NCBI RefSeq assembly: GCF_003056725.1
Contig: NZ_QBKZ01000016.1
Location: 62,001 to 126,000 of the forward strand
Direction of reading: 5' to 3'
DNA from: Mangrovicoccus ximenensis
Lineage (GTDB): Bacteria > Pseudomonadota > Alphaproteobacteria > Rhodobacterales > Rhodobacteraceae
Length of the DNA stretch: 64,000 nt
Shown here: piece by piece, positions 12,990 through 25,462 of the stretch
Numbering within the stretch: position 1 is the first letter of the stretch
Layout: every line of letters starts with the position of its first letter
Position numbers and translations under genes: made by a program
Notes under the pieces: model-generated
Told to the model about the DNA's origin: nothing
The model's input: only the letters and a program-made list of their open reading frames with translations
Database searches by the model: none

Positions 12990-13768
12990 CAAGGCCGCCG
13001 GTCCCTGCAGTGCGGACGCGGAGGCGGCACTCCGCCCGATCATGGGCACCGGCGACCGGAACGGCATGGCACTGGCCGGAAAGCGCGCGATCGGGACGAA
13101 TGCCCGCGGCCCGGCGCAATGCAGGCCGGGCAGGATCCGATGCCATGGACAGCGATCCGTCCGCCGGCAACAAGGGCGGACGCCCCCGGCATTTCGCCGT
13201 TGGGCATCAGGTCCGGTCAACGGGAACCCAACCCTGAGGATGTTCGGGTTTTCCGGCAAGGCGTCGCCCCCGGGCCCGAGCCGCGGCCGCCTCGGGGTCC
13301 GGGAAGGTCTCCCGTGAAAAGGATGGTTCCCGCACCGCTTCGATGGGGGCACCTCGCGGGGACGGCCACGGCCGGACTCCGATCTCCGGCTGCATGCTGT
13401 CCCGCCCGGCCTTCAGCCGGAAAACCATCGGGGCGCCTCGGCATCCGCTCCCGGGAGGAAGCCGGGCACATTGACTTGCCGGCCGTCCCCGGACCATCCA
13501 TCGCGCCCGTGCCTTCCATCCGGGCCGGACCGGCCAAGGCGGAACAAAGGAGCTTCTGGCCGCCGCCCCGGCGCGGTGCGGGACAAGCGCTGTGCTTGCC
13601 GGCGCGGGGCTGCATCGGCGGCCTGCCGCGCCGTCATCCCCCGGAAGACCCCGCACCCAATGGCACCTCCATGCGGATTGCCCCACAGCACCTGCACTGC
13701 CGCAGATGAAGCAGCCCCGGCGTGTACCCGCGCGCGCGGCCTCCGAGCCTGCAGCCAAGGGCGAAGCG
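12990..13768. other. No gene recognised (0.8 kb GC-rich spacer)
   Basis: No frame gives recognisable protein. A short start at 13145 reads MDSDPSAGNKGGRPR, reminiscent of the N-termini of MobC-like or regulator proteins, but turns to nonsense within about 15 residues. The spacer separates two truncated flavoprotein genes on opposite strands. Confidence 0.45.
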
Positions 13769-13769
13769 G

Positions 13770-14368
13770 TCGCCGAAGGTCAGCGGCACCAGGCCGGGGC
13801 GGGTGTCCGTGACGGCCAGCCCGAACTGGTCGGCGATCCGGTAGGCGAGGCCGGTGGCGCCGATCTTCGGGATCGACTTGCCCCCCGTCGCCAGCGCCAG
13901 CGCGTCGCAGGTGACCTCCATCCCGCGCCCCTCGCGGGCGAGCCTCAGCCGGAACCGCGTGCCGTCATGGGCGACTTCCTCGACCGAGGTCGAGAGCCAC
14001 AGCTCGGCGCCCGCGGCGGCCATCTCGGCAGTGAGCAGGTCGATGATCTGCCCCGCGCTGTCGTCGCAGAACAGCTGGCCCAGGGTCTTTTCGTGCCAGG
14101 CGATGCCGTGGCGCTGCACCAGATCGAGGAAATCCCACTGGGTGTAGCGCTTCAGCGCCGATTTGGCGAAATGCGGGTTGCCGGAGAGGTAGTTCTCCGC
14201 CGAGGCATGCATGTTGGTGAAATTGCAGCGCCCGCCGCCGGAGATGCGGATCTTTTCGCCCGGGGTGGCACGGTGCTCGATCACGACGCTGCCCGGACCG
14301 GCATGGGCGGCGCACATCATCCCGGCAGCGCCGGCGCCGAGGATCGCGGTGGGGACATGTCGGGTCAT
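13770..14368 (-). pseudogene. BaiN/HI0933-type FAD oxidoreductase, N-terminal half
   Basis: Starting at ATG 14368 (MTRHVPTAILGAGAAGMMCA), about 200 residues match the NAD(P)/FAD-dependent aminoacetone-oxidase/BaiN family. Visible are the GxGxxG motif, GEKIRISGGGRCNFTNMHAS, and DALALATGGKSIPKIGATG. The protein breaks off at GLVPLTFGDRFA near 13768. Relatives have about 390 residues, so the second half of the FAD domain and the insert domain are lost. Confidence 0.75.
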
Positions 14369-16194: not shown

Positions 16195-16246
16195 GGGACT
16201 CTCCATAAGTTTGTCACGGGGCAGACCCTAGTGCGGAGTGCGGAAA

Positions 16247-16738
16247 ATGGAATGGACAAGACAGGTCGATGCCTATTGCGAGCGCATTGACGCATCCTTC
16301 TGGTCGGAGCCGGTCAATGCGGCGACCAATCTGGCATTTCTCCTGGCTGCCTGGATCATGTGGCGGCGCTGCCGCGGGCAGGGACCGGCCGAGGCGTTCC
16401 TGCTGATTGCCCTGCTGGCGGCGATCGGCATCGGCTCGGGGCTGTTCCACACCTATGCGACGGTCTGGGCGATGCAGGCCGACGTGATCCCGATCGGCTG
16501 CTTCATCCTGGCCTATGTCTATGCCGCGAACCGGCATTTCTGGCGGCTGCCGGTGCGGGCGGCCTCGGCGGGGACGATGATGGTCGTGCCCTATGCCTTC
16601 CTGGCGGTGCCGGTCTTCGAGGCGCTGCCCTTCTTCCGCATTTCGGCGGCCTACTGGCCGGTGCCGCTCCTGATCGCGGCCTATGCGGTCGCGCTGCGGC
16701 GCCGGGCGCCGGCGACGGCGCGGGGCCTCGGGATCGGC
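16247..16738 (+). pseudogene. Ceramidase-domain membrane protein, truncated
   Basis: About 164 residues carry four or five hydrophobic segments and ceramidase-family signatures: WSEPVNAATNLAFLLAAW near residue 20 and GSGLFHTYATVWAMQADVIP near 65, including the conserved His and Asp of the metal site. After RRRAPATARGLGIGG the sequence becomes non-protein-like at about 16738. Relatives have about 210 residues, so the last helix with the C-terminal His pair is lost. Confidence 0.65.
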
Positions 16739-16899
16739 GGCCCGACCCGGCAACCGGGGCGCACCGGTCCGGCCTGTCGCGGTCGGGCCGGTTCTGCAGT
16801 TCGGGGGGCTGTTCTCAGGCGCGGGCGCGGTTGCGCTCGGACGGGAGGACGGGGCGGGGCAGGCCGGACCGGTCCGCGGAGCCGACTTCGGAGGCCGAA

Positions 16900-17513
16900 A
16901 CACAGGGCGGACGATCGGGATTTGTTTCCCGGTAGATTGCCAGCGACTCGCCGACGGCCTTGTCGGGATCGCTGCAGAGAAGGGCCGCCAGATTGGCGAC
17001 GCTGCGCCGCGACACCGGCTCCGCCGCATTCGGCAGCGCCTCGCCGGTCCGGGCGATGGCATAGGCGATCTCGTCGGCATCGTTCAGCTAGGCCGGGCAG
17101 AGCAGCGTATGCGCGATCCCGGCCGCTTCGATCAGCTCGGCGGCCCGCTGGTGCGGCGCGAAGCCCGCGCCGAGCTGCATGCCGGGCACGCCGCCATGCA
17201 CGCCGAGCGCGGAGGCGAAGATCAGCCTGCGCAGGCCGGTGCGCCGCATCGCGGCCAGGATCGCGGCGGCCTGGCGATCCACATCGCCGGAGAGATTGGC
17301 ATAGATCAGATCCTGCCCGTCCATGGCCGCTTCCAGCATGATCGGGTCGAGCACGTCGCCTTCATAGACGCGGGTTCCGTCCCCCGCGGTGGCCAGCGCC
17401 CGGGTCGCGTCGCGCAGGAACAGCGACATCTGCACTTGGCCGCCGTCGCGCAGCGCCCGCGCCACATGGCGCGCGACCTGTCCGTTCGCTCCGAGAATCA
17501 ATGCCTTGGTCAT
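16900..17513 (-). pseudogene. Atypical SDR (NAD(P)H-binding) gene with in-frame TAG
   Basis: The gene starts at ATG 17513 with MTKALILGANGQVARHVARA (NAD(P)-binding GxxGxxA). It reads through LIFASALGVHGGVPG to LLCPA, then TAG at 17090-17088 (codon 142). In the same frame it continues LNDADEIAYAIARTGEAL, VSRRSVANLAALLCSDPD and GESLAIYRE, the normal family C-terminus. Relatives have RPAW at this spot, so TGG to TAG is the likely lesion. Apart from the stop the gene looks complete. Read-through or a sequencing error cannot be excluded. Confidence 0.75.
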
Positions 17514-17691: not shown

Positions 17692-18390
17692 TCAGCCGGG
17701 ACTGCCTTCGAAGGCGTGGGGCACGGCCTCGCGGATGGCCGGAAGCTCCTCCAGAACCAGGCGGAGATGCGCGCGCATCAGGGTTTCCGCCGTTGCGGCA
17801 TCGCCGACCTCGACGGCCTCGGCGATGGCTTCGTGCTGGTCGACCAGCGTGCCGACCGGAAAATGCGTGACCGACAGGTGGCGGATGCGGTCCATCTGGC
17901 GGTTGAGCCCTGCCGCCATGTCCCAGGCCTGTCCGCGGCCGACGGCTTCGGCAAGGCTGCGGTGGAACAGGTTGTCGAGCGGCAGGAACTCCGCCGAACT
18001 GCCTGCGCCGAGAGCGCGCTGCCCTGCGATCTGGCGGCGCAGCTCGGCACCCAGCCCGGGCGGCCTGCACTCGGCGCAGAGCCGCACCACATCCGCCTCG
18101 AGCGCCTCGCGCAGGAAGCGGGCATCGAGCAGCCTGTCGAGGCAGATCGGGCGCACGAAGGTGCCGCGCTGCGGCCGGATGTCCAGAAACCCCTCTTCGG
18201 AGAGCTTGATGAAGGCTTCGCGCACGGGCTGCCGCGAGACCCCCATCGCCTTGCCGATCTCGGTTTCCGTCAGCCGGGTTCCGGGCGGCAGCCGGTTGCG
18301 GATGATCGCCTCGCGCAGGATATGCGCCAGCTGGGGCACGACGGCCCGTGCCGGATCAAGGGCGGGTGCACCGAGCGTCAAGGGATCCAT
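17692..18390 (-). CDS. GntR-family (FCD) transcriptional regulator
   Basis: This 232-residue regulator has an N-terminal winged helix (TRLTETEIGKAMGVSRQPV, then LSEEGFLDIRPQRGTFV, residues about 38-80). An all-helical FCD effector domain follows with LREALEADVVRLCAE, DNLFHRSLAEAVGR and DQHEAIAEAVEVGDAATAET, containing the Asp/His residues that bind metal or a small acid in FadR-type proteins. Its target is not obvious; the neighbours are a broken SDR gene and a divergent lipoprotein. ATG 18390 (MDPLTLGAPALDP) is the only start before non-protein sequence. Confidence 0.85.
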   Translation of the reverse strand: MDPLTLGAPALDPARAVVPQLAHILREAIIRNRLPPGTRLTETEIGKAMGVSRQPVREAFIKLSEEGFLDIRPQRGTFVRPICLDRLLDARFLREALEADVVRLCAECRPPGLGAELRRQIAGQRALGAGSSAEFLPLDNLFHRSLAEAVGRGQAWDMAAGLNRQMDRIRHLSVTHFPVGTLVDQHEAIAEAVEVGDAATAETLMRAHLRLVLEELPAIREAVPHAFEGSPG

Positions 18391-18544
18391 GTGCAACTCT
18401 CCTTCCGGTACCTGCGGGTTGCGGGGCCGCCATGGCCGGAACGCTGCCCGAAACTTGATCGCGCTGCGGGTTTTTCCGCGTGCGGCAGGGCGCTTCATCT
18501 GGCACAAGCAGCACATGACCGCAACCCGGAACGAAAGGACCCCC

Positions 18545-18790
18545 ATGACCCCCATCCTGAGGAGCCTGACCGCCGGTCTTCTTCTGGTCCTGGCCGCCGG
18601 CTGCGGCGGTCCGCCTGCGTCTCCGGTTCCGACCGGCCCGGTCTCGGCGTCCAACCTGTCCGGAATCCTCGGCATGTCCTACAGCCCGGCCATCGACCAG
18701 GTCCGGGCGCTCGGCTACCGGCAGGTGCGCAGCCGCGGGGCGACGAGCTATTGGCAGGAGCCGCGCAGCGGCCGCTGCACCCGCATCGGC
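18545..18790 (+). pseudogene. Small lipoprotein, probably truncated
   Basis: ATG 18545 begins MTPILRSLTAGLLLVLAAGC, a lipoprotein signal with a LAAGC lipobox. The mature part, ALGYRQVRSRGATSYWQEP then SGRCTRI, resembles short alphaproteobacterial lipoproteins with a Y-W-x(n)-C-T-R-I end. Those usually have a few dozen more residues, whereas here Arg/Pro-rich sequence begins after CTRIGRA. Function unknown. Confidence 0.5.
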
Positions 18791-19469: not shown

Positions 19470-20324
19470 TCAGGAGGCCAGCTTCGCGCTTTCCTCGATG
19501 TAGATTTCGCGCAGGCGCTTCGCGACCGGGCCCGGCTTGCCGCCGCCGATCTCGGCGCCGTCGATCTTCACCACCGGCATGACGAAGGTCGTGGCCGAGG
19601 TGATGAAGGCTTCTGCCGCGTCCTTGGCCTCTTCGATGGTGAAGGGGCGTTCCTCGACCTGCATCTGCGCTTCCTTGGCCATCTTCAGGACGGCGGCGCG
19701 GGTGATGCCGTGCAGGATGTCGCTCGACAGCTGGCGGGTTACGATCCGGCCGTCCTTGGTGACGATATAGGCGTTGTTCGATGTGCCCTCGGTGACGAAG
19801 CCGTCCTCGACCAGCCAAGCGTCGTCGAAGCCGGCCTTCTTGGCCGCGGTCTTGGCCATCGACGGATAGAGAAGCTGCACCGTCTTGATGTCGCGGCGCG
19901 CCCAGCGCTGGTCGTCGGTGACGCCGACCGACATGCCGGTCTCGGCCTTGGGCGACTCGACGAGGTTCATGTGCATGCCGAAGAGCACGACGGTGGGCTT
20001 CAGCCCCTCGGGCATCAGGAAGTCGCGGTCGGCGACGCCGCGGGTGATCTGCAGGTAGACGCCGCCTTCGACGATGGCGTTCTTCTCGACCAGTTCCTTG
20101 TGGACACCGAGCAGCTCTTCGGCGGACATCGGCATCTCGATGCCGAGCTCGCCCAGCGAGCGCTCCAGCCGCCGCACATGGCCGTCGAAATCGATCAGCC
20201 GGCCGCCGAGAACCGAGGTCACCTCGTAGACGCCGTCGCCCATCAGGAAGGCGCGGTCGAAGATCGAGACCTTCGCCTCTTCCGCGGGCAGGAATTCTCC
20301 GTTCAGGTAAACGATGCGGGTCAT
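19470..20324 (-). CDS. dat: D-amino-acid transaminase
   Basis: This 284-residue fold-type IV PLP enzyme interconverts D-alanine plus 2-oxoglutarate with pyruvate plus D-glutamate. It starts MTRIVYLNGEFLPAEEAKVS. The early motif SIFDRAFLMGDGVYEVTSV, the PLP-Lys region KTVQLLYPSMAKTAAKKAG (Lys near 145), the DGFVTEGTSNNAYIV motif and the SATTFVMPVVKIDG end are all present. It lies 16 bp downstream of dgcA in the same direction, forming a D-glutamate/D-alanine operon with dgcN. A strong hairpin follows. Confidence 0.88.
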   Translation of the reverse strand: MTRIVYLNGEFLPAEEAKVSIFDRAFLMGDGVYEVTSVLGGRLIDFDGHVRRLERSLGELGIEMPMSAEELLGVHKELVEKNAIVEGGVYLQITRGVADRDFLMPEGLKPTVVLFGMHMNLVESPKAETGMSVGVTDDQRWARRDIKTVQLLYPSMAKTAAKKAGFDDAWLVEDGFVTEGTSNNAYIVTKDGRIVTRQLSSDILHGITRAAVLKMAKEAQMQVEERPFTIEEAKDAAEAFITSATTFVMPVVKIDGAEIGGGKPGPVAKRLREIYIEESAKLAS

Positions 20325-20340
20325 GGATGGGTCCTCTCGG

Positions 20341-21311
20341 TCAGCCCCAGAGACCGGGCTCTGGCGGATGGATGCCGTCCCCGTCATAGAGGATCGGCGT
20401 GTCGCGGTCTTCGGCCAGCAGGAGCGGCGCGTCAAGATCGGTCACGCGGGCGCCCTGCGCCAGCAGCACGCCCGGCGCCATCGCGAGCGACGAACCGACC
20501 ATGCAGCCGACCATGATGCCGTAGCCTTCGGCCATCGCGGCCTGCTTCAGCTTCAGCGCCTCGGTCAGGCCGCCGGTCTTGTCGAGCTTGATGTTGATGA
20601 CGTCGTATTTGCCCTTCAGCTTGTGGAGCGAGGCACGGTCATGGGCGCTCTCGTCGGCGCAGACCGGCACCGGGCGGTCGAGCCCGATCAGGGCGTCGTC
20701 CTCGCCTGCGGGCAGCGGCTGCTCGACCAGCGTGACGCCGAGCCGGGTCAGATGCGGCGCGAGATCGGCATAGACCTCCGCGCTCCAGCCCTCGTTGGCG
20801 TCGACGATGATCTCGGACCCGGGCGCGCCCGCGCGGACGGCTTCGAGCCGCGGCATGTCGTCGGGCGTGCCGAGCTTGATCTTCAGCAGCGGCCGGAAGG
20901 CGTTCTTCGCGGCATTGGCCCGCATCGCCTCCGGCTCGTCGAGCCCGAGCGTATAGGCCGTGATCACCGGTCCCGGCGCGGGCAGCCCGGCCAGGTCCCA
21001 GGCACGGACACCGGTCCGCTTGGCTTCGAGATCCCAGAAGGCGCAGTCGACGGCATTGCGCGCGGCGCCCGCGGGCAGCAGCTCCTGCAGGCTCTCGCGG
21101 GTCACGTCCGGGGCAGGCCGCGGATCAGCCCCGCGACGCTGTCGAGCGACTCGCCGTAGCGGGCATAGGGCACGCATTCGCCGCGCCCGGCATGGGGGCC
21201 GTCCCGCAGCGTGACGGTGATCACCTGCGCCTCGGTCTTCGCCCCCCGCGAGATGCGGAAGGCCTGGGCAAGGCGGAAGCTCTCGGCCTGCACCTCGATC
21301 TTGAGCGTCAT
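20341..21311 (-). pseudogene. dgcA: DgcA-type dipeptide/N-acetyl-Glu epimerase, frameshifted
   Basis: The gene starts at ATG 21311 (MTLKIEVQAESFRLAQAF). After about 65 residues, at SVAGLIRGLP, it must shift frame to continue with PDVTRESLQELLPAG. One missing C in the C-run (GGGG at 21110-21113 on the plus strand) explains it. The rest is an intact enolase-superfamily barrel: LLKIKLG (catalytic Lys), IIVDANEGWS, LVEQPLP, CADESAHD and VINIKLDKTGGL. In the described DgcN/DgcA route this enzyme epimerises N-acetyl-D-glutamate. The homopolymer site makes a sequencing error quite possible. Confidence 0.8.
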
Positions 21312-21373
21312 GGCATGTCCTCTCGCGCTGACGCGCGCCGGGCCTGACCCGGCGCCTCCTGGTGGTCGGGTGG

Positions 21374-21411
21374 GGCCCCGGGTCAAGCCCGGGGCGGGAC
21401 AGGGCTCAGAG
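21374..21411. repeat. Hairpin repeat overlapping a stop codon (copy 2)
   Basis: GCCCCGGG-TCAAG-CCCGGGGC forms an 8-bp stem, followed by GGGACAGGGCTCAGAG, in which TCA is the dgcN stop. Layout and downstream sequence match the copy at 15471-15507. Inside the operon it could stabilise the dgcN message or reduce dgcA expression. Confidence 0.6.
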
Positions 21412-22407
21412 GCCCGCGAGCGCGTCGACCAGACGGCCCGCGCCCTGGCGGAACGGGTCGACTGCCGGCAGGCCCATCTTGGCTTCCAGCTCCGCCAGAT
21501 AGGCATCGCCCTCTTCCGGCGTCATGCCCGAGGTGTTCACCGAGATGCCCACCACCTTGCAGGCCGGGTTCGCGACCTGCGCCAGCTGCAGCGCGACATC
21601 GCGCAGGGCCTCCAGCGAGGGAAGCTGGTAGTCCGGCAGGCCGCGCATGTGCGGGCGGGTCGGCTCGTGGCACAGCACCAGCGCATCCGGCTGGCCGCCA
21701 TGGACCAGCGCCAGCGTCACGCCGGAATAGGAGACGTGGAACAGGCTGCCCTGCCCCTCGATCAGGTCCCAGTGCTCCGGATCGTTGTCCGGCGTCAGCG
21801 CCTCGATCGAGCCCGCCATGAAATCGGCGACCACCGCATCGAGCGGCACGCCGCCGCCGGTGATCAGGATGCCGGTCTGGCCGGTCGCCCGGAAGGTCGC
21901 GTCCATGCCGCGCGCGCTCATTTCCTTTTCCATGGCCAGCGCGGTGTACATCTTGCCGACCGAACAGTCGGTGCCGACGGCCAGGCAGCGCTTGCCCGGG
22001 CGCTTCACGCCGTTGGCGATCGGATAGGGCCGGTCGGGCAGGCGCACGTCATAGAGCCGGGTCCCGGCCCGCGCCGCCGCATCGACCAGCGGCTGCTGGT
22101 CGCGCAGCAGCGTGTGCAGCCCCGAGGCGATGTCGAAGCCCTTTTCCAGCGCCTCGACCAGAATCGCCATCCAGCTGTCGGAAATCACGCCGCCGCGATT
22201 CGCCACGCCGATCACCAGCGTCTTGGCGCCGGCCGCCTTGGCCTCGTCCAGCGTCATGTCGGGGATCTTCATGTCGGCATTGCAGCCGGCCAGGCGCAGC
22301 TGGCCCACCGCGAAATCCGGCCGCCAGTCGCGGATCCCCTGGGCCACCTTCGCAGCCAGCGGGTCGGGGGCATCGCCGAGGAAAAGCAGATAGGGGTGCT
22401 GGATCAT
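21406..22407 (-). CDS. dgcN: DgcN, DUF1611-family D-glutamate N-acetyltransferase
   Basis: This 333-residue protein is predicted to acetylate D-glutamate as the first step of the DgcN/DgcA catabolic route. Conserved features are the start MIQHPYLLFLGDAPDPLAAK, the GVANRGG motif, the P-loop-like AVGTDCSVGKMYTALAME near residue 150, GQTGILITGGGVPLDAVVAD, and LIEGQGSLFHVSYSGVTLAL with LCHEPTRP. Tandem ATGs at 22410/22407 follow GGAG; 22407 gives better spacing. The next gene is dgcA, 94 bp away, with a hairpin repeat between. Confidence 0.85.
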   Translation of the reverse strand: MIQHPYLLFLGDAPDPLAAKVAQGIRDWRPDFAVGQLRLAGCNADMKIPDMTLDEAKAAGAKTLVIGVANRGGVISDSWMAILVEALEKGFDIASGLHTLLRDQQPLVDAAARAGTRLYDVRLPDRPYPIANGVKRPGKRCLAVGTDCSVGKMYTALAMEKEMSARGMDATFRATGQTGILITGGGVPLDAVVADFMAGSIEALTPDNDPEHWDLIEGQGSLFHVSYSGVTLALVHGGQPDALVLCHEPTRPHMRGLPDYQLPSLEALRDVALQLAQVANPACKVVGISVNTSGMTPEEGDAYLAELEAKMGLPAVDPFRQGAGRLVDALAGL

Positions 22408-22550
22408 CATTCGCTCCGTCATTCGCATTCGCGGCGATCATGCGCCGCCTTCCGTCCGTTTCAACATGAACCCTGCACTGGCCCGATGAAACCGCCCATA
22501 TGGACCTATCCGCAGGAGAATCTGCCGTTTTTCCGGCAGGGCCTGGCATC

Positions 22551-22667: not shown

Positions 22668-23627
22668 ATGAGTTTCCGCATCCAGCCCGCGGCCCCTGCC
22701 CGTCCCAACCGCTGCCAGCTTTTCGGCCCGGGCTCCCGCCCGGCCATCTTCGAGAAGATGGCAGGATCGGCCGCCGATGTCATCAATCTCGACCTCGAGG
22801 ACTCGGTCGCACCCGACGACAAGGCCGAAGCCCGCAAGAACATCATCCAGGCGATCGGCGACATCGACTGGGGCAAGAAGACCCTGTCGGTGCGGATCAA
22901 CGGGCTCGACACGCCCTACTGGTACCGCGACGTGGTCGATCTGCTGGAGCAGGCCTCGGACCGGATCGACCAGATCATGATCCCGAAGGTCGGCTGCGCG
23001 GGCGACATCTATGCCGTCGATGCGCTGGTCACCGCGGTGGAGCGCGCCAAGGGCCGCACGAAGCCGATCAAGTTCGAGGTGATCATCGAATCCGCGGCGG
23101 GCATCGCCCATGTCGAGGAGATCGCCGCCGCCTCGCCCCGCATGGAGGCGATGAGCCTCGGCGCCGCCGATTTCGCGGCCTCGATGGGGATGCAGACCAC
23201 CGGCATCGGCGGGACGCAGGAAAACTACTACATGATCCGCGAGGGCGCGAAGCACTGGTCGGATCCGTGGCACTGGGCGCAGGCCGCCATTGTCGCCGCC
23301 TGCCGCACCCATGGCGTGCTGCCGGTCGACGGGCCGTTCGGCGATTTCTCGGATGACGAAGGCTATCGCGCGCAGGCGCGCCGCTCGGCGACGCTGGGCA
23401 TGGTCGGAAAATGGGCGATCCACCCCAAGCAGATCGCCATCGCCAACGAGGTCTTCACCCCCTCCGAGGAAGCCGTGGCCGAGGCACGCGAGATTCTCGC
23501 CGCCATGGAGAAGGCCAAGGCCGAAGGCGCCGGGGCCACCGTCTACAAAGGCCGCCTGGTCGACATCGCGTCGATCAAGCAGGCCGAAGTCATCGTGGCG
23601 CAAGCCGAGCTGATTGCAAGCAGCTGA
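22668..23627 (+). CDS. mcl1: L-malyl-CoA/beta-methylmalyl-CoA lyase
   Basis: This 319-residue CitE-like lyase cleaves beta-methylmalyl-CoA and L-malyl-CoA in the ethylmalonyl-CoA pathway used for acetyl-CoA assimilation. It is very like Rhodobacter Mcl1. Signatures are NRCQLFGPGSRPAIFEKM at the N-terminus, the metal/CoA motif VINLDLEDSVAPDDKAEA near 38, KFEVIIESAAGIAHVEEI near 136, GAADFAASMGMQTTGIGG and the HPKQIAIANEVFTPS end. The stop is followed within 11 bp by a strong terminator, so it is probably monocistronic. Confidence 0.95.
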   Translation: MSFRIQPAAPARPNRCQLFGPGSRPAIFEKMAGSAADVINLDLEDSVAPDDKAEARKNIIQAIGDIDWGKKTLSVRINGLDTPYWYRDVVDLLEQASDRIDQIMIPKVGCAGDIYAVDALVTAVERAKGRTKPIKFEVIIESAAGIAHVEEIAAASPRMEAMSLGAADFAASMGMQTTGIGGTQENYYMIREGAKHWSDPWHWAQAAIVAACRTHGVLPVDGPFGDFSDDEGYRAQARRSATLGMVGKWAIHPKQIAIANEVFTPSEEAVAEAREILAAMEKAKAEGAGATVYKGRLVDIASIKQAEVIVAQAELIASS

Positions 23628-23679: not shown

Positions 23680-24215
23680 CGGATCAGTGCCTGCGCGACT
23701 GACACCCTCCCGCGGCGCTGCCAGCCTTTCGGCGAACGGACATCGCCCGCAGAGGACAGCACGGAGAGCGGTCCGGCCTGCCGGCGCATCAAGCTGGCCC
23801 TCGACTACGTGCCGGTCCGGGCGCTGCCGGCAGCCGCCCTCGCCGCCCAGCGGATACGCCACCCCGGCCGCATCGCGGCGCTGGCGCGCCATGTCGGCAG
23901 CGTGAAGATCGGCCAGATGGAGATGAAGCTGCGCCAGGTCGAGACGGAGCTGCGCGAGACCGGACGGCAGCTCTCCGAAGCGAAGACCGAGAATGCCCGG
24001 CTCGCGGTGCTCTACACCCGCTTCGATCCGCATGCGCCGGTCCCCAAACTGCAAACGACCCGACAGGCCCTGGCCGAAACGGCCCGGACGCTCGGCGATT
24101 TTTCTCCCGCCCCCGAAGGCCTGCAGCCCGGCACAAGTGCCGAGGACGCCCATGCCGCCGCCGCCATGCGGCGGGTCGGCGCGACCCGGCCTGCCTCGGC
24201 GCGCTGATCGCCGCG
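23680..24215. other. Possible coiled-coil gene remnant in a spacer
   Basis: On the plus strand about 50 codons around 23905-24045 read VGSVKIGQMEMKLRQVETEL and ETGRQLSEAKTENARLAVLY, a protein-like coiled-coil segment. It has no convincing start and is flanked by non-protein sequence. No family recognised; a decayed fragment is the best guess. Confidence 0.3.
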
Positions 24216-24219
24216 ATCG

Positions 24220-24530
24220 ACCCGGCGCAGCGCATCGGCCGCCCCGGCGTGATCGCCATGGCCGTGGGTCAGCACGATGGCCCGGAGGCCGCCCGGCGCC
24301 GCCCGCAGGATCGCCTGGACATGCCCGGCATCGTCGGGGCCGGGATCGATCGCCAGGGTGCCCTCCGCCGTCCCGACCAGATAGGAATTCGTCCCGTGAT
24401 AGGTCATCACGCCCGGATTGGGCGCTACGATGCGCAGGACGCCGTCGGCCACCGGAACCGCCCTGCCGTAATCCGGCACCGGCTCCTGCAGGAAGTCGGC
24501 CGACCGGCTCTTCTTGACGAGGTCATGCAT
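24220..24530 (-). pseudogene. MBL-fold metallohydrolase, N-terminal fragment
   Basis: ATG 24530 (MHDLVKKSRSADFLQEPVPD) begins 3 bp after the LysR stop, as in an operon. About 100 residues match LACTB2/ribonuclease-type MBL proteins: NPGVMTYHGTNSYLVGT, LAIDPGPDDAGHVQAI and the zinc motif IVLTHGHGDHAGAADAL. The sequence then degenerates near 24220. Relatives have about 300 residues, so most metal ligands are lost. Confidence 0.7.
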
Positions 24531-24532
24531 GT

Positions 24533-25462
24533 CTACGGCGCTCCCGTCCCGTCCCGTGCCTCCGCCGCCGCGGCGCCGAGACCGCGCAGGACGGAAATGA
24601 AATTGCCGAGGATCGCCTCCGGCGGGCCGGAGGGCCAAACCAGGCGCAGCTCGGTCCGGAAGGTGTCCTGGCGCAGCCGGGCAACGCGGATGTCGCCGGG
24701 AAACTGCAGTTGCGACGAGGTGACGATCAGCCCGACGCCCATGCCAACCGAGATCAGGTTGATCTGGGTCGAGATGTTGGAGACCTGCTGGACGATTTTC
24801 GGCGTGAACGGGAAGAACGGGTTCACCAGCGAGCGCCCGACGACGATGAAGCCCTCGCCGCTCAGCTCGCCGATGTCGAGCTCCTCCCGTCCGGCCAGCG
24901 GATGGTCGACCGGAAGCGCGACGCCGATGTGCCCGGCATCGAGCACCAGCGAATTGAGGTCGCCGATGCTGCCGCTCTCGGGCAGCGACATCGTCCGCCT
25001 GCCCTCCTCGCGGGCGACATAGACGAAGCCCGCATCGAGCCGTCCGAGGCGGATCTCATCGAGCTGGAGGCTGCTGGCCTGCTCCTTCAGGACGAGATCG
25101 GTCTCGGGATAGAGCACGCCCATCTTCTTGACGCCTTCGCGGAACACCGGATGGCGCAGCCCGAGCGAGCCGTATCCGATCCTGAGGAGGCCGGCCTTGC
25201 CCTCGCCGACTCGCCGGGTCGTCTGGGTCGCGGTCTCGACATCCTGGAGGATCGCCAGAGCATGTTTCAGGAAGGTCTCGCCCGCGGCGGTCAGCTGCAC
25301 CTTGTGCGCCTCGCGCCGGAACAGCTTCACGCCCAGCTCCATCTCGAGATCCGCCACGGTCTGCGAGACCGCAGGGCGCGTCACCGCGAGGATCTCCGCG
25401 GCCCGGCCGAAATGCAGCGCCCCGGCGGCGGCGGCGAAATATCTGATATGGCGCAATTCCAA
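24533..25462 (-). CDS. LysR-family transcriptional regulator
   Basis: This 309-residue regulator has an N-terminal HTH (FGRAAEILAVTRPAVSQTVA, residues about 19-38), then LEMELGVKLFRREAHKVQLT, and a periplasmic-binding-like effector domain with IRLGRLDAGFVYV and SVGMGVGLIVTSSQLQ. The likely start is TTG 25462 (LELRHIRYFAAAAGALHF), because GGAGGGG lies 9-15 bp upstream and no ATG fits. It sits 270 bp downstream of an ABC permease on the same strand and may regulate that importer or the MBL hydrolase that follows. Confidence 0.85.
   Translation of the reverse strand: MELRHIRYFAAAAGALHFGRAAEILAVTRPAVSQTVADLEMELGVKLFRREAHKVQLTAAGETFLKHALAILQDVETATQTTRRVGEGKAGLLRIGYGSLGLRHPVFREGVKKMGVLYPETDLVLKEQASSLQLDEIRLGRLDAGFVYVAREEGRRTMSLPESGSIGDLNSLVLDAGHIGVALPVDHPLAGREELDIGELSGEGFIVVGRSLVNPFFPFTPKIVQQVSNISTQINLISVGMGVGLIVTSSQLQFPGDIRVARLRQDTFRTELRLVWPSGPPEAILGNFISVLRGLGAAAAEARDGTGAP

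Follow-up and report, generated by a model that had tools for sequence, protein, structure and literature searches.

We analysed a window of 64,000 nucleotides of Mangrovicoccus ximenensis DNA (contig NZ_QBKZ01000016.1, positions 62,001 to 126,000) in which dgcN, dgcA, and the gene of a D-amino-acid transaminase (DAAT) lie in this order on the minus strand. The three-gene order is conserved beyond chance in the Rhodobacteraceae, the family of this bacterium, and we lean towards the view that it represents a family-conserved operon for the salvage of peptidoglycan D-amino acids. Judging from their spacing (94 bp between dgcN and dgcA and 16 bp between dgcA and DAAT, by coordinates) and from the conserved order, the three genes probably form one operon.

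The original prediction had given these names to a one-strand cluster, and curated models bear them out. DgcN scores 550 bits against its equivalog model NF041892 (cut-off 480, model positions 1-326) and matches the solved chain 7xrj at E 3.1e-167. The C-terminal piece of DgcA is enough by itself to pass NF042940 (411 bits, cut-off 400), against which the intact protein of a congener scores 491 bits. DAAT passes NF005209, the PRK06680 subfamily of D-amino-acid transaminases (385 bits, cut-off 320), and its best solved chains are D-alanine or D-amino acid aminotransferases. Its closest named relatives are in Mangrovicoccus sp. HB161399 (95% identity), Poseidonocella sp. HB161398 (94%), and Mangrovicoccus algicola (88%). 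The predicted positions, order, and strand also stand, but dgcA is split over two frames in the assembly.

Evidence for and against a salvage operon

Conservation was assessed with the three curated models in one genome per genus, covering 149 genera of Rhodobacteraceae. The genome of the window is among them, with the C-terminal piece taken as its dgcA; as not all genomes are complete, a few absences may be gaps. The three genes are adjacent, on the same strand and in the same order, in 105 of the 149 genera, which agrees with the earlier expectation of a conserved order in Rhodobacterales, checked here within the family. Taken individually, DgcN is over its cut-off in 113 genera, DgcA in 126 (plus one partial), and DAAT in 142. 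Not one of the 113 dgcN-bearing genera lacks dgcA, which is partial in G114. All three genes are present but not all adjacent in eight genera, at least three of which have a gene at a contig end. Adjacent dgcA and DAAT without dgcN over the cut-off were found in 13, in one of which (G108) a contig break cuts dgcN. One genus has dgcA and DAAT unlinked and lacks dgcN, and seven have none of the three genes.

In the salvage model, DgcN would acetylate D-glutamate to N-acetyl-D-glutamate and DgcA would invert the latter to N-acetyl-L-glutamate, steps that are known for these families and were assigned here by the curated models. The product would then enter the arginine or the L-glutamate pool. 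The transaminase would move amino groups among D-amino acids, most likely from D-alanine to 2-oxoglutarate, yielding pyruvate and D-glutamate. The nitrogen of D-alanine would thus end in D-glutamate, to be drained by DgcN and DgcA. The D-amino acids of peptidoglycan make up a large reservoir of organic nitrogen in the sea that is drawn on slowly, and Rhodobacteraceae are abundant there; through a fixed link between D-alanine transamination and D-glutamate inversion, the two main D-amino acids of murein would share a single exit. The model is plausible and fits published growth on these compounds: according to the portion of PMC11747546 that we draw on, a strain of the Rhodobacteraceae in which all three enzymes are encoded grows on D-glutamate and D-alanine.

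A number of observations weigh against this reading, and in particular against the coupling of the transaminase to the two other enzymes. First, DAAT occurs without dgcN and dgcA over the cut-off in 15 of the 149 genera, two of them represented by genomes less than 90% complete. Since it persists without both partners, it probably has an additional role of its own, and the idea that it exists to serve DgcN and DgcA is weakened. Second, unrelated genes split dgcA from DAAT in some genera. Third, the coupling is not general in the class. Of 190 genomes from it, 70, including three of the same family, have a dgcA match at E 1e-60 or better; among the best 30 of these 70, 28 belong to other families, some of their loci ending at contig ends. 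In these 28 loci dgcN is beside dgcA in 27 and DAAT lies within about 1.5 kb of dgcA in none, which means that the pathway occurs without the DAAT coupling. Fourth, the DAAT of the window is below the cut-off of the stricter equivalog TIGR01121 (243 bits, cut-off 277). Fifth, in 62 aligned DAAT rows, some from the same genome, with the canonical positions mapped through an alignment to structure chains, the enzyme departs from the canonical Bacillus DAAT (1daa). All 62 rows have Phe in place of His100 of the RxH motif, the carboxylate trap, and 55 have Ser at the equivalent of Lys35, a position where only four fit the canonical motif; a preference for D-glutamate and 2-oxoglutarate is therefore not assured. 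The D-amino-acid salvage module that had been proposed from the three genes remains plausible, and it is the feeding of DgcN and DgcA by the transaminase that has lost ground.

The possibility that a meaningful gene is inserted between dgcA and DAAT was rejected. The seven inserts, classified by a Pfam scan, are unrelated to each other: a metallophosphoesterase, a weak hydrolase, a weak exonuclease, a Nudix protein, a DUF4189 protein below the cut-off, a peptidoglycan-binding protein, and a DUF3800 protein.

The transaminase and the supply of D-glutamate

The motif of canonical DAATs, as given in the part of PMC10003956 used here (Table 2), consists of F26, Y31, [VA]33, [KRPT]35, xYxQ, and RxH; that of non-canonical enzymes, from the same source, consists of R26, F31, [TY]33, [LA]35, and x[RK]x[IVW]. 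Tyr31, Val33, YxQ, and Arg98 (the Arg of RxH) are kept in 62 of 62 rows and, like the residues of the pyridoxal phosphate (PLP) site, are shared with 1daa. In the rows themselves, Tyr33, Val35, Tyr90, Gln92, and Arg100 are universal, together with Arg52, Lys147, and Glu179 of the PLP site. Phe26 of 1daa is replaced by Met in 42 rows, and position 26 fits the canonical motif in the 20 others. The protein of the window, which is among those with Met, fits at neither position 26 nor position 35 and so lacks the full canonical motif. None of the 62 rows follows the non-canonical motif, as none has R, F, or [TY] at its first three places. By its residues the operon enzyme is closest to the canonical D-type group but has a changed carboxylate trap; we infer its substrate range from this likeness.

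Could the transaminase instead be an enzyme of branched-chain or aminodeoxychorismate metabolism that lies there by chance? These enzymes are of the same fold class, the models of branched-chain aminotransferases and aminodeoxychorismate lyases match the protein significantly (183 bits at best), and several positions of the canonical DAAT motif are unmatched. Yet the scores are far under the cut-offs (the best is 183 of 363), the D-amino-acid subfamily model is passed, and the gene has a conserved position beside dgcN and dgcA. We regard this explanation as extremely improbable; by sequence, the enzyme is predicted to be D-type and not L-branched-chain, as had been proposed. A second transaminase over the NF005209 cut-off is encoded elsewhere in the genome of the window (G000:C7:830219-831070, 356 bits).

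The broad distribution of the transaminase, wider than that of dgcN (142 genera against 113), would also fit a supply enzyme of the cell wall, one that makes or balances D-glutamate and D-alanine for peptidoglycan, with DgcN and DgcA as an adjacent overflow valve and not as its downstream pathway. The presence of glutamate racemase bears on this alternative. A match to its model TIGR00067 at E 0.001 is found in 138 of the 149 genomes, of which only 41 are over the model cut-off and a few are weak fragments; the genome of the window, with 143.6, is just under the cut-off of 146.65. This suggests that DAAT is probably not needed for D-glutamate in most of these bacteria. Eleven genomes have no TIGR00067 match at E 0.001 (MurL was not searched for), and six of these are at least 97% complete (G001, G015, G083, G090, G101, and G136). 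All six have DAAT over its cut-off, as the supply role would have it, but with a base rate of 142 in 149 such a co-occurrence carries little weight, and other proteins with the Asp/Glu-racemase fold occur in five of the six. Five such proteins, from four of these genomes and not including the strongest matches, were inspected by eye: one is YgeA-like and the rest are different enzymes of this fold. The sixth genome, G090 (97% complete), has DAAT and no match to either TIGR00067 (E 0.001) or PF01177 (E 0.01), and by its gene content it is a candidate for a DAAT-dependent supply of D-glutamate. As a whole, the case for DAAT as the source of D-glutamate in genomes without TIGR00067 matches is suggestive, no more, and we find the role as a supply enzyme possible, if rather unlikely.

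dgcA without dgcN

The presence of dgcN was followed within two genera. In that of G104, none of 19 genomes has dgcN, dgcA is over its cut-off in 16 of them, and dgcA and DAAT are close together without dgcN in the 17 loci examined, one with dgcA in two pieces. In the genus of G055, dgcN is present in 29 of the 30 loci examined (40 genomes) and was lost only in G055 itself. For dgcA, the median ratio of nonsynonymous to synonymous substitutions (dN/dS) is 0.237 in the genus that lacks dgcN, against 0.101 in the dgcN-bearing one; for DAAT it is 0.132 against 0.101 (0.124 in another computation). dgcA is thus clearly kept under purifying selection without dgcN. When the comparison, which involves only these two genera and few pairs in the lower bins, is restricted to narrower ranges of synonymous difference (pS), the dgcN-less and dgcN-bearing values are 0.193 and 0.044 for dgcA and 0.134 and 0.035 for DAAT at pS 0.3-0.45, and 0.249 and 0.107 for dgcA and 0.130 and 0.119 for DAAT at pS 0.45-0.6. 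The dgcN-less genus thus shows relaxation of dgcA at the widest divergence, but since DAAT is also faster there in the narrower bins, we draw no conclusion specific to one gene. Across the family, relaxation of DgcA after loss of dgcN was not seen: between 12 dgcN-less and 17 dgcN-bearing loci, the ratio of DgcA to DAAT distances is 1.17 versus 1.19 (p 0.55; two of 31 loci, with dgcN off the locus, were excluded).

The DgcA tree is poorly resolved (61 rows, 3 of 58 inner branches starred). The best tree needs 10 changes to account for the absence of dgcN, of which starred branches force at least two. The absence shows no clear clustering, as 105 of 500 shuffles gave values as low. No replacement acetyltransferase shared by the dgcN-less loci was found upstream of dgcA; of 12 such loci, the upstream gene was identified in six, where it is the divergent lyase gene described below and immediately precedes dgcA. 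At locus L074, from a genome without dgcN, a DgcA-like fragment of 94 residues (55% identity) lies between DAAT and the lyase gene; it is a possible remnant of stepwise loss.

What could DgcA do alone? Its persistence without dgcN, together with a DxD motif, hints at a second role, on murein dipeptides. Both Asp of the motif (DLD in DgcA) are among ten active-site residues that are identical in 77 of 77 rows, 12 of these rows without dgcN. In L-Ala-D/L-Glu epimerases the ammonium group of the dipeptide substrate is bound by the DxD motif, on the last barrel strand; N-acetylglutamate has no such group. A solved epimerase, 1jpd, which we take to be E. coli YcjG, has DLD at the same place and by alignment shares with DgcA also the fold, the metal ligands, and the lysines. 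DgcA might then be, or also be, a murein dipeptide epimerase that converts L-Ala-D-Glu to L-Ala-L-Glu, and with DAAT it could recycle the D-glutamate and D-alanine of muropeptides even without dgcN. The retention of dgcA over its cut-off without dgcN in 13 of the 149 genera, in one case unlinked to DAAT, and the purifying selection in the genus of G104 would be explained in this way. However, all five DgcA proteins tested, which pass the racemase cut-off, reach only 300-323 bits against the epimerase model NF011708 (cut-off 343), and DgcA differs from the epimerase in its gene neighbours. Besides, the faster evolution of dgcA in the dgcN-less genus is what one would expect if its main partner were gone, and two of the 13 genomes (G008 and G118) are less than 85% complete. 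We therefore put the epimerase role forward as a tentative and somewhat unlikely alternative. A broader version, in which the operon is a murein D-amino-acid recycling module with a bifunctional DgcA (N-acetylglutamate racemase and L-Ala-D/L-Glu epimerase), a variant RxF D-transaminase, and a dispensable DgcN, we hold to be unlikely; if DgcN were dispensable, this would explain why it was lost repeatedly while DgcA and the transaminase stayed. The dgcN-less genera are natural knock-outs in which both possibilities, that DgcA has a second role and that DAAT has an independent one, become testable.

Similar losses are seen in a collection of named genomes and metagenome-assembled genomes (MAGs). 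The 76 loci found there via DAAT, several of them incomplete, comprise 37 with all three genes, five with dgcA and DAAT, and 34 with DAAT without the other two. dgcA and DAAT without dgcN occur in Gemmobacter nectariphilus and Xinfangfangia pollutisoli. In Paracoccus denitrificans, P. versutus, P. kondratievae, P. thiocyanatus, and P. aminovorans, DAAT adjoins the divergent lyase and both dgcN and dgcA are missing; the same lyase is in reach in 24 of the 37 complete loci. All three genes were also found in Terasakiella brassicae and in some MAGs named Gammaproteobacteria, and the three-gene link is therefore not confined to the family. Some genomes of the family have a second, diverged DgcA-like/DgcN-like pair (about 190-230 bits, below cut-off), side by side in reverse order, which perhaps serves another D-amino acid.

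The locus, its assembly, and known systems

Coordinates of the features discussed (positions in the window, unless a genome and contig are given).
Feature	Position	Strand	Basis or remark
DAAT, class IV PLP enzyme	19470-20324	-	NF005209 over cut-off; TIGR01121 below
dgcA, N-acetyl-D-glutamate racemase (enolase superfamily)	20341-21311	-	NF042940 in two frames: residues 1-62 in 21102-21311, residues 66-323 in 20341-21177
One-base frame break in dgcA, approximate	21105-21115	-	Alignment with congeners L088 and L089
Strong palindromic stem-loop, dgcN-dgcA spacer	21312-21405	-	Fold of 21312-21406: -60 kcal/mol, z -4.26
dgcN, D-glutamate N-acetyltransferase (DUF1611 family)	21406-22410	-	NF041892, PF07755 and PF17396, solved chain 7xrj; open frame 21406-22428, likely starting at 22410 or 22407
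Weak sigma-70-like promoter match upstream of dgcN	22437-22464	-	Consensus match only, 9/12
Divergent CitE/HpcH-family lyase	22668-23627	+	PF03328; common neighbour, outside operon
Diverged DgcA-like/DgcN-like pair	G024:C18, G037:C105, G126:C11, G020:C22, G064:C146, G109:C116, G090:C1, G136:C8		

The dgcA of the window is not one open frame, and the frame change falls between residues 67 and 69. This could mean that dgcA is a pseudogene and the pathway is dead in this strain. Yet three genomes of the same genus encode an intact DgcA of 323 residues, which matches both pieces end to end, and in the DNA alignment, informative for two of these congeners (L088 and L089), the window is one base short near 21110, beside a short C run. 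With a single base missing and dgcA intact in three congeners, the break is likely an assembly error. The genome (5.97 Mb in 34 contigs) reaches 84% completeness, the three congeners 98-100%, and in other genes of the window domain matches stop part-way (HI0933 3-191 of 244, ceramidase 18-140 of 259, and lactamase_B 4-66 of 196). Such low completeness in few contigs, together with the part-way matches, fits an error-rich assembly. We thus judge real gene loss very unlikely. The genes with part-way matches, at 13634-14368, 16238-17341, and 24012-24638, are consistent with further frame breaks in the assembly.

The stem-loop between dgcN and dgcA has short similar matches elsewhere in the genome and in congeners and is probably a dispersed repeat similar to repetitive extragenic palindromes (REP). 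One sigma-70-like match was found upstream of dgcN, against 0.2 expected in shuffles. The divergent lyase is presumably mcl1-like, and in many relatives it lies next to the operon or what remains of it. A GntR gene (17692-18573) was dropped as a candidate regulator, as the genes shared with congeners stop at DAAT. Downstream of DAAT, many relatives (L049, L053, L058, and others) have a DUF1244 gene, an N-formylglutamate amidohydrolase family gene, and a pyruvate kinase gene, a set not seen adjoining the operon of the window. The amidohydrolase was rejected as the missing deacylase: it stays in loci that lost dgcN and dgcA and looks like background synteny.

How does the operon compare with known systems? 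A DgcN-DgcA pathway of D-glutamate catabolism was reportedly described by Yu et al. in 2023 (ISME J 17:537), with dgcR said to be its regulator. The Rhodobacteraceae cluster has the same two enzymes by curated equivalog models, adjacent and in the same order; unlike that pathway, it has a D-amino-acid transaminase as third gene. In Pseudoalteromonas CF6-2, D-alanine is reportedly catabolised through a D-alanine aminotransferase (Yu et al. in 2022, AEM 88), a catabolic use of the enzyme like the one proposed here. The route from D-glutamate to N-acetyl-D-glutamate and N-acetyl-L-glutamate is already published, as stated in the part of PMC12363236 that we use. A description of the three-gene array was not found in our searches of the open literature, including the accessible parts of PMC10845958, PMC11747546, PMC10003956, PMC12363236, and PMC5808125; subscription papers were not covered. 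The core pathway is known; all that is unusual in the system is the third gene, regularly attached, and the fact that dgcN has been lost repeatedly.

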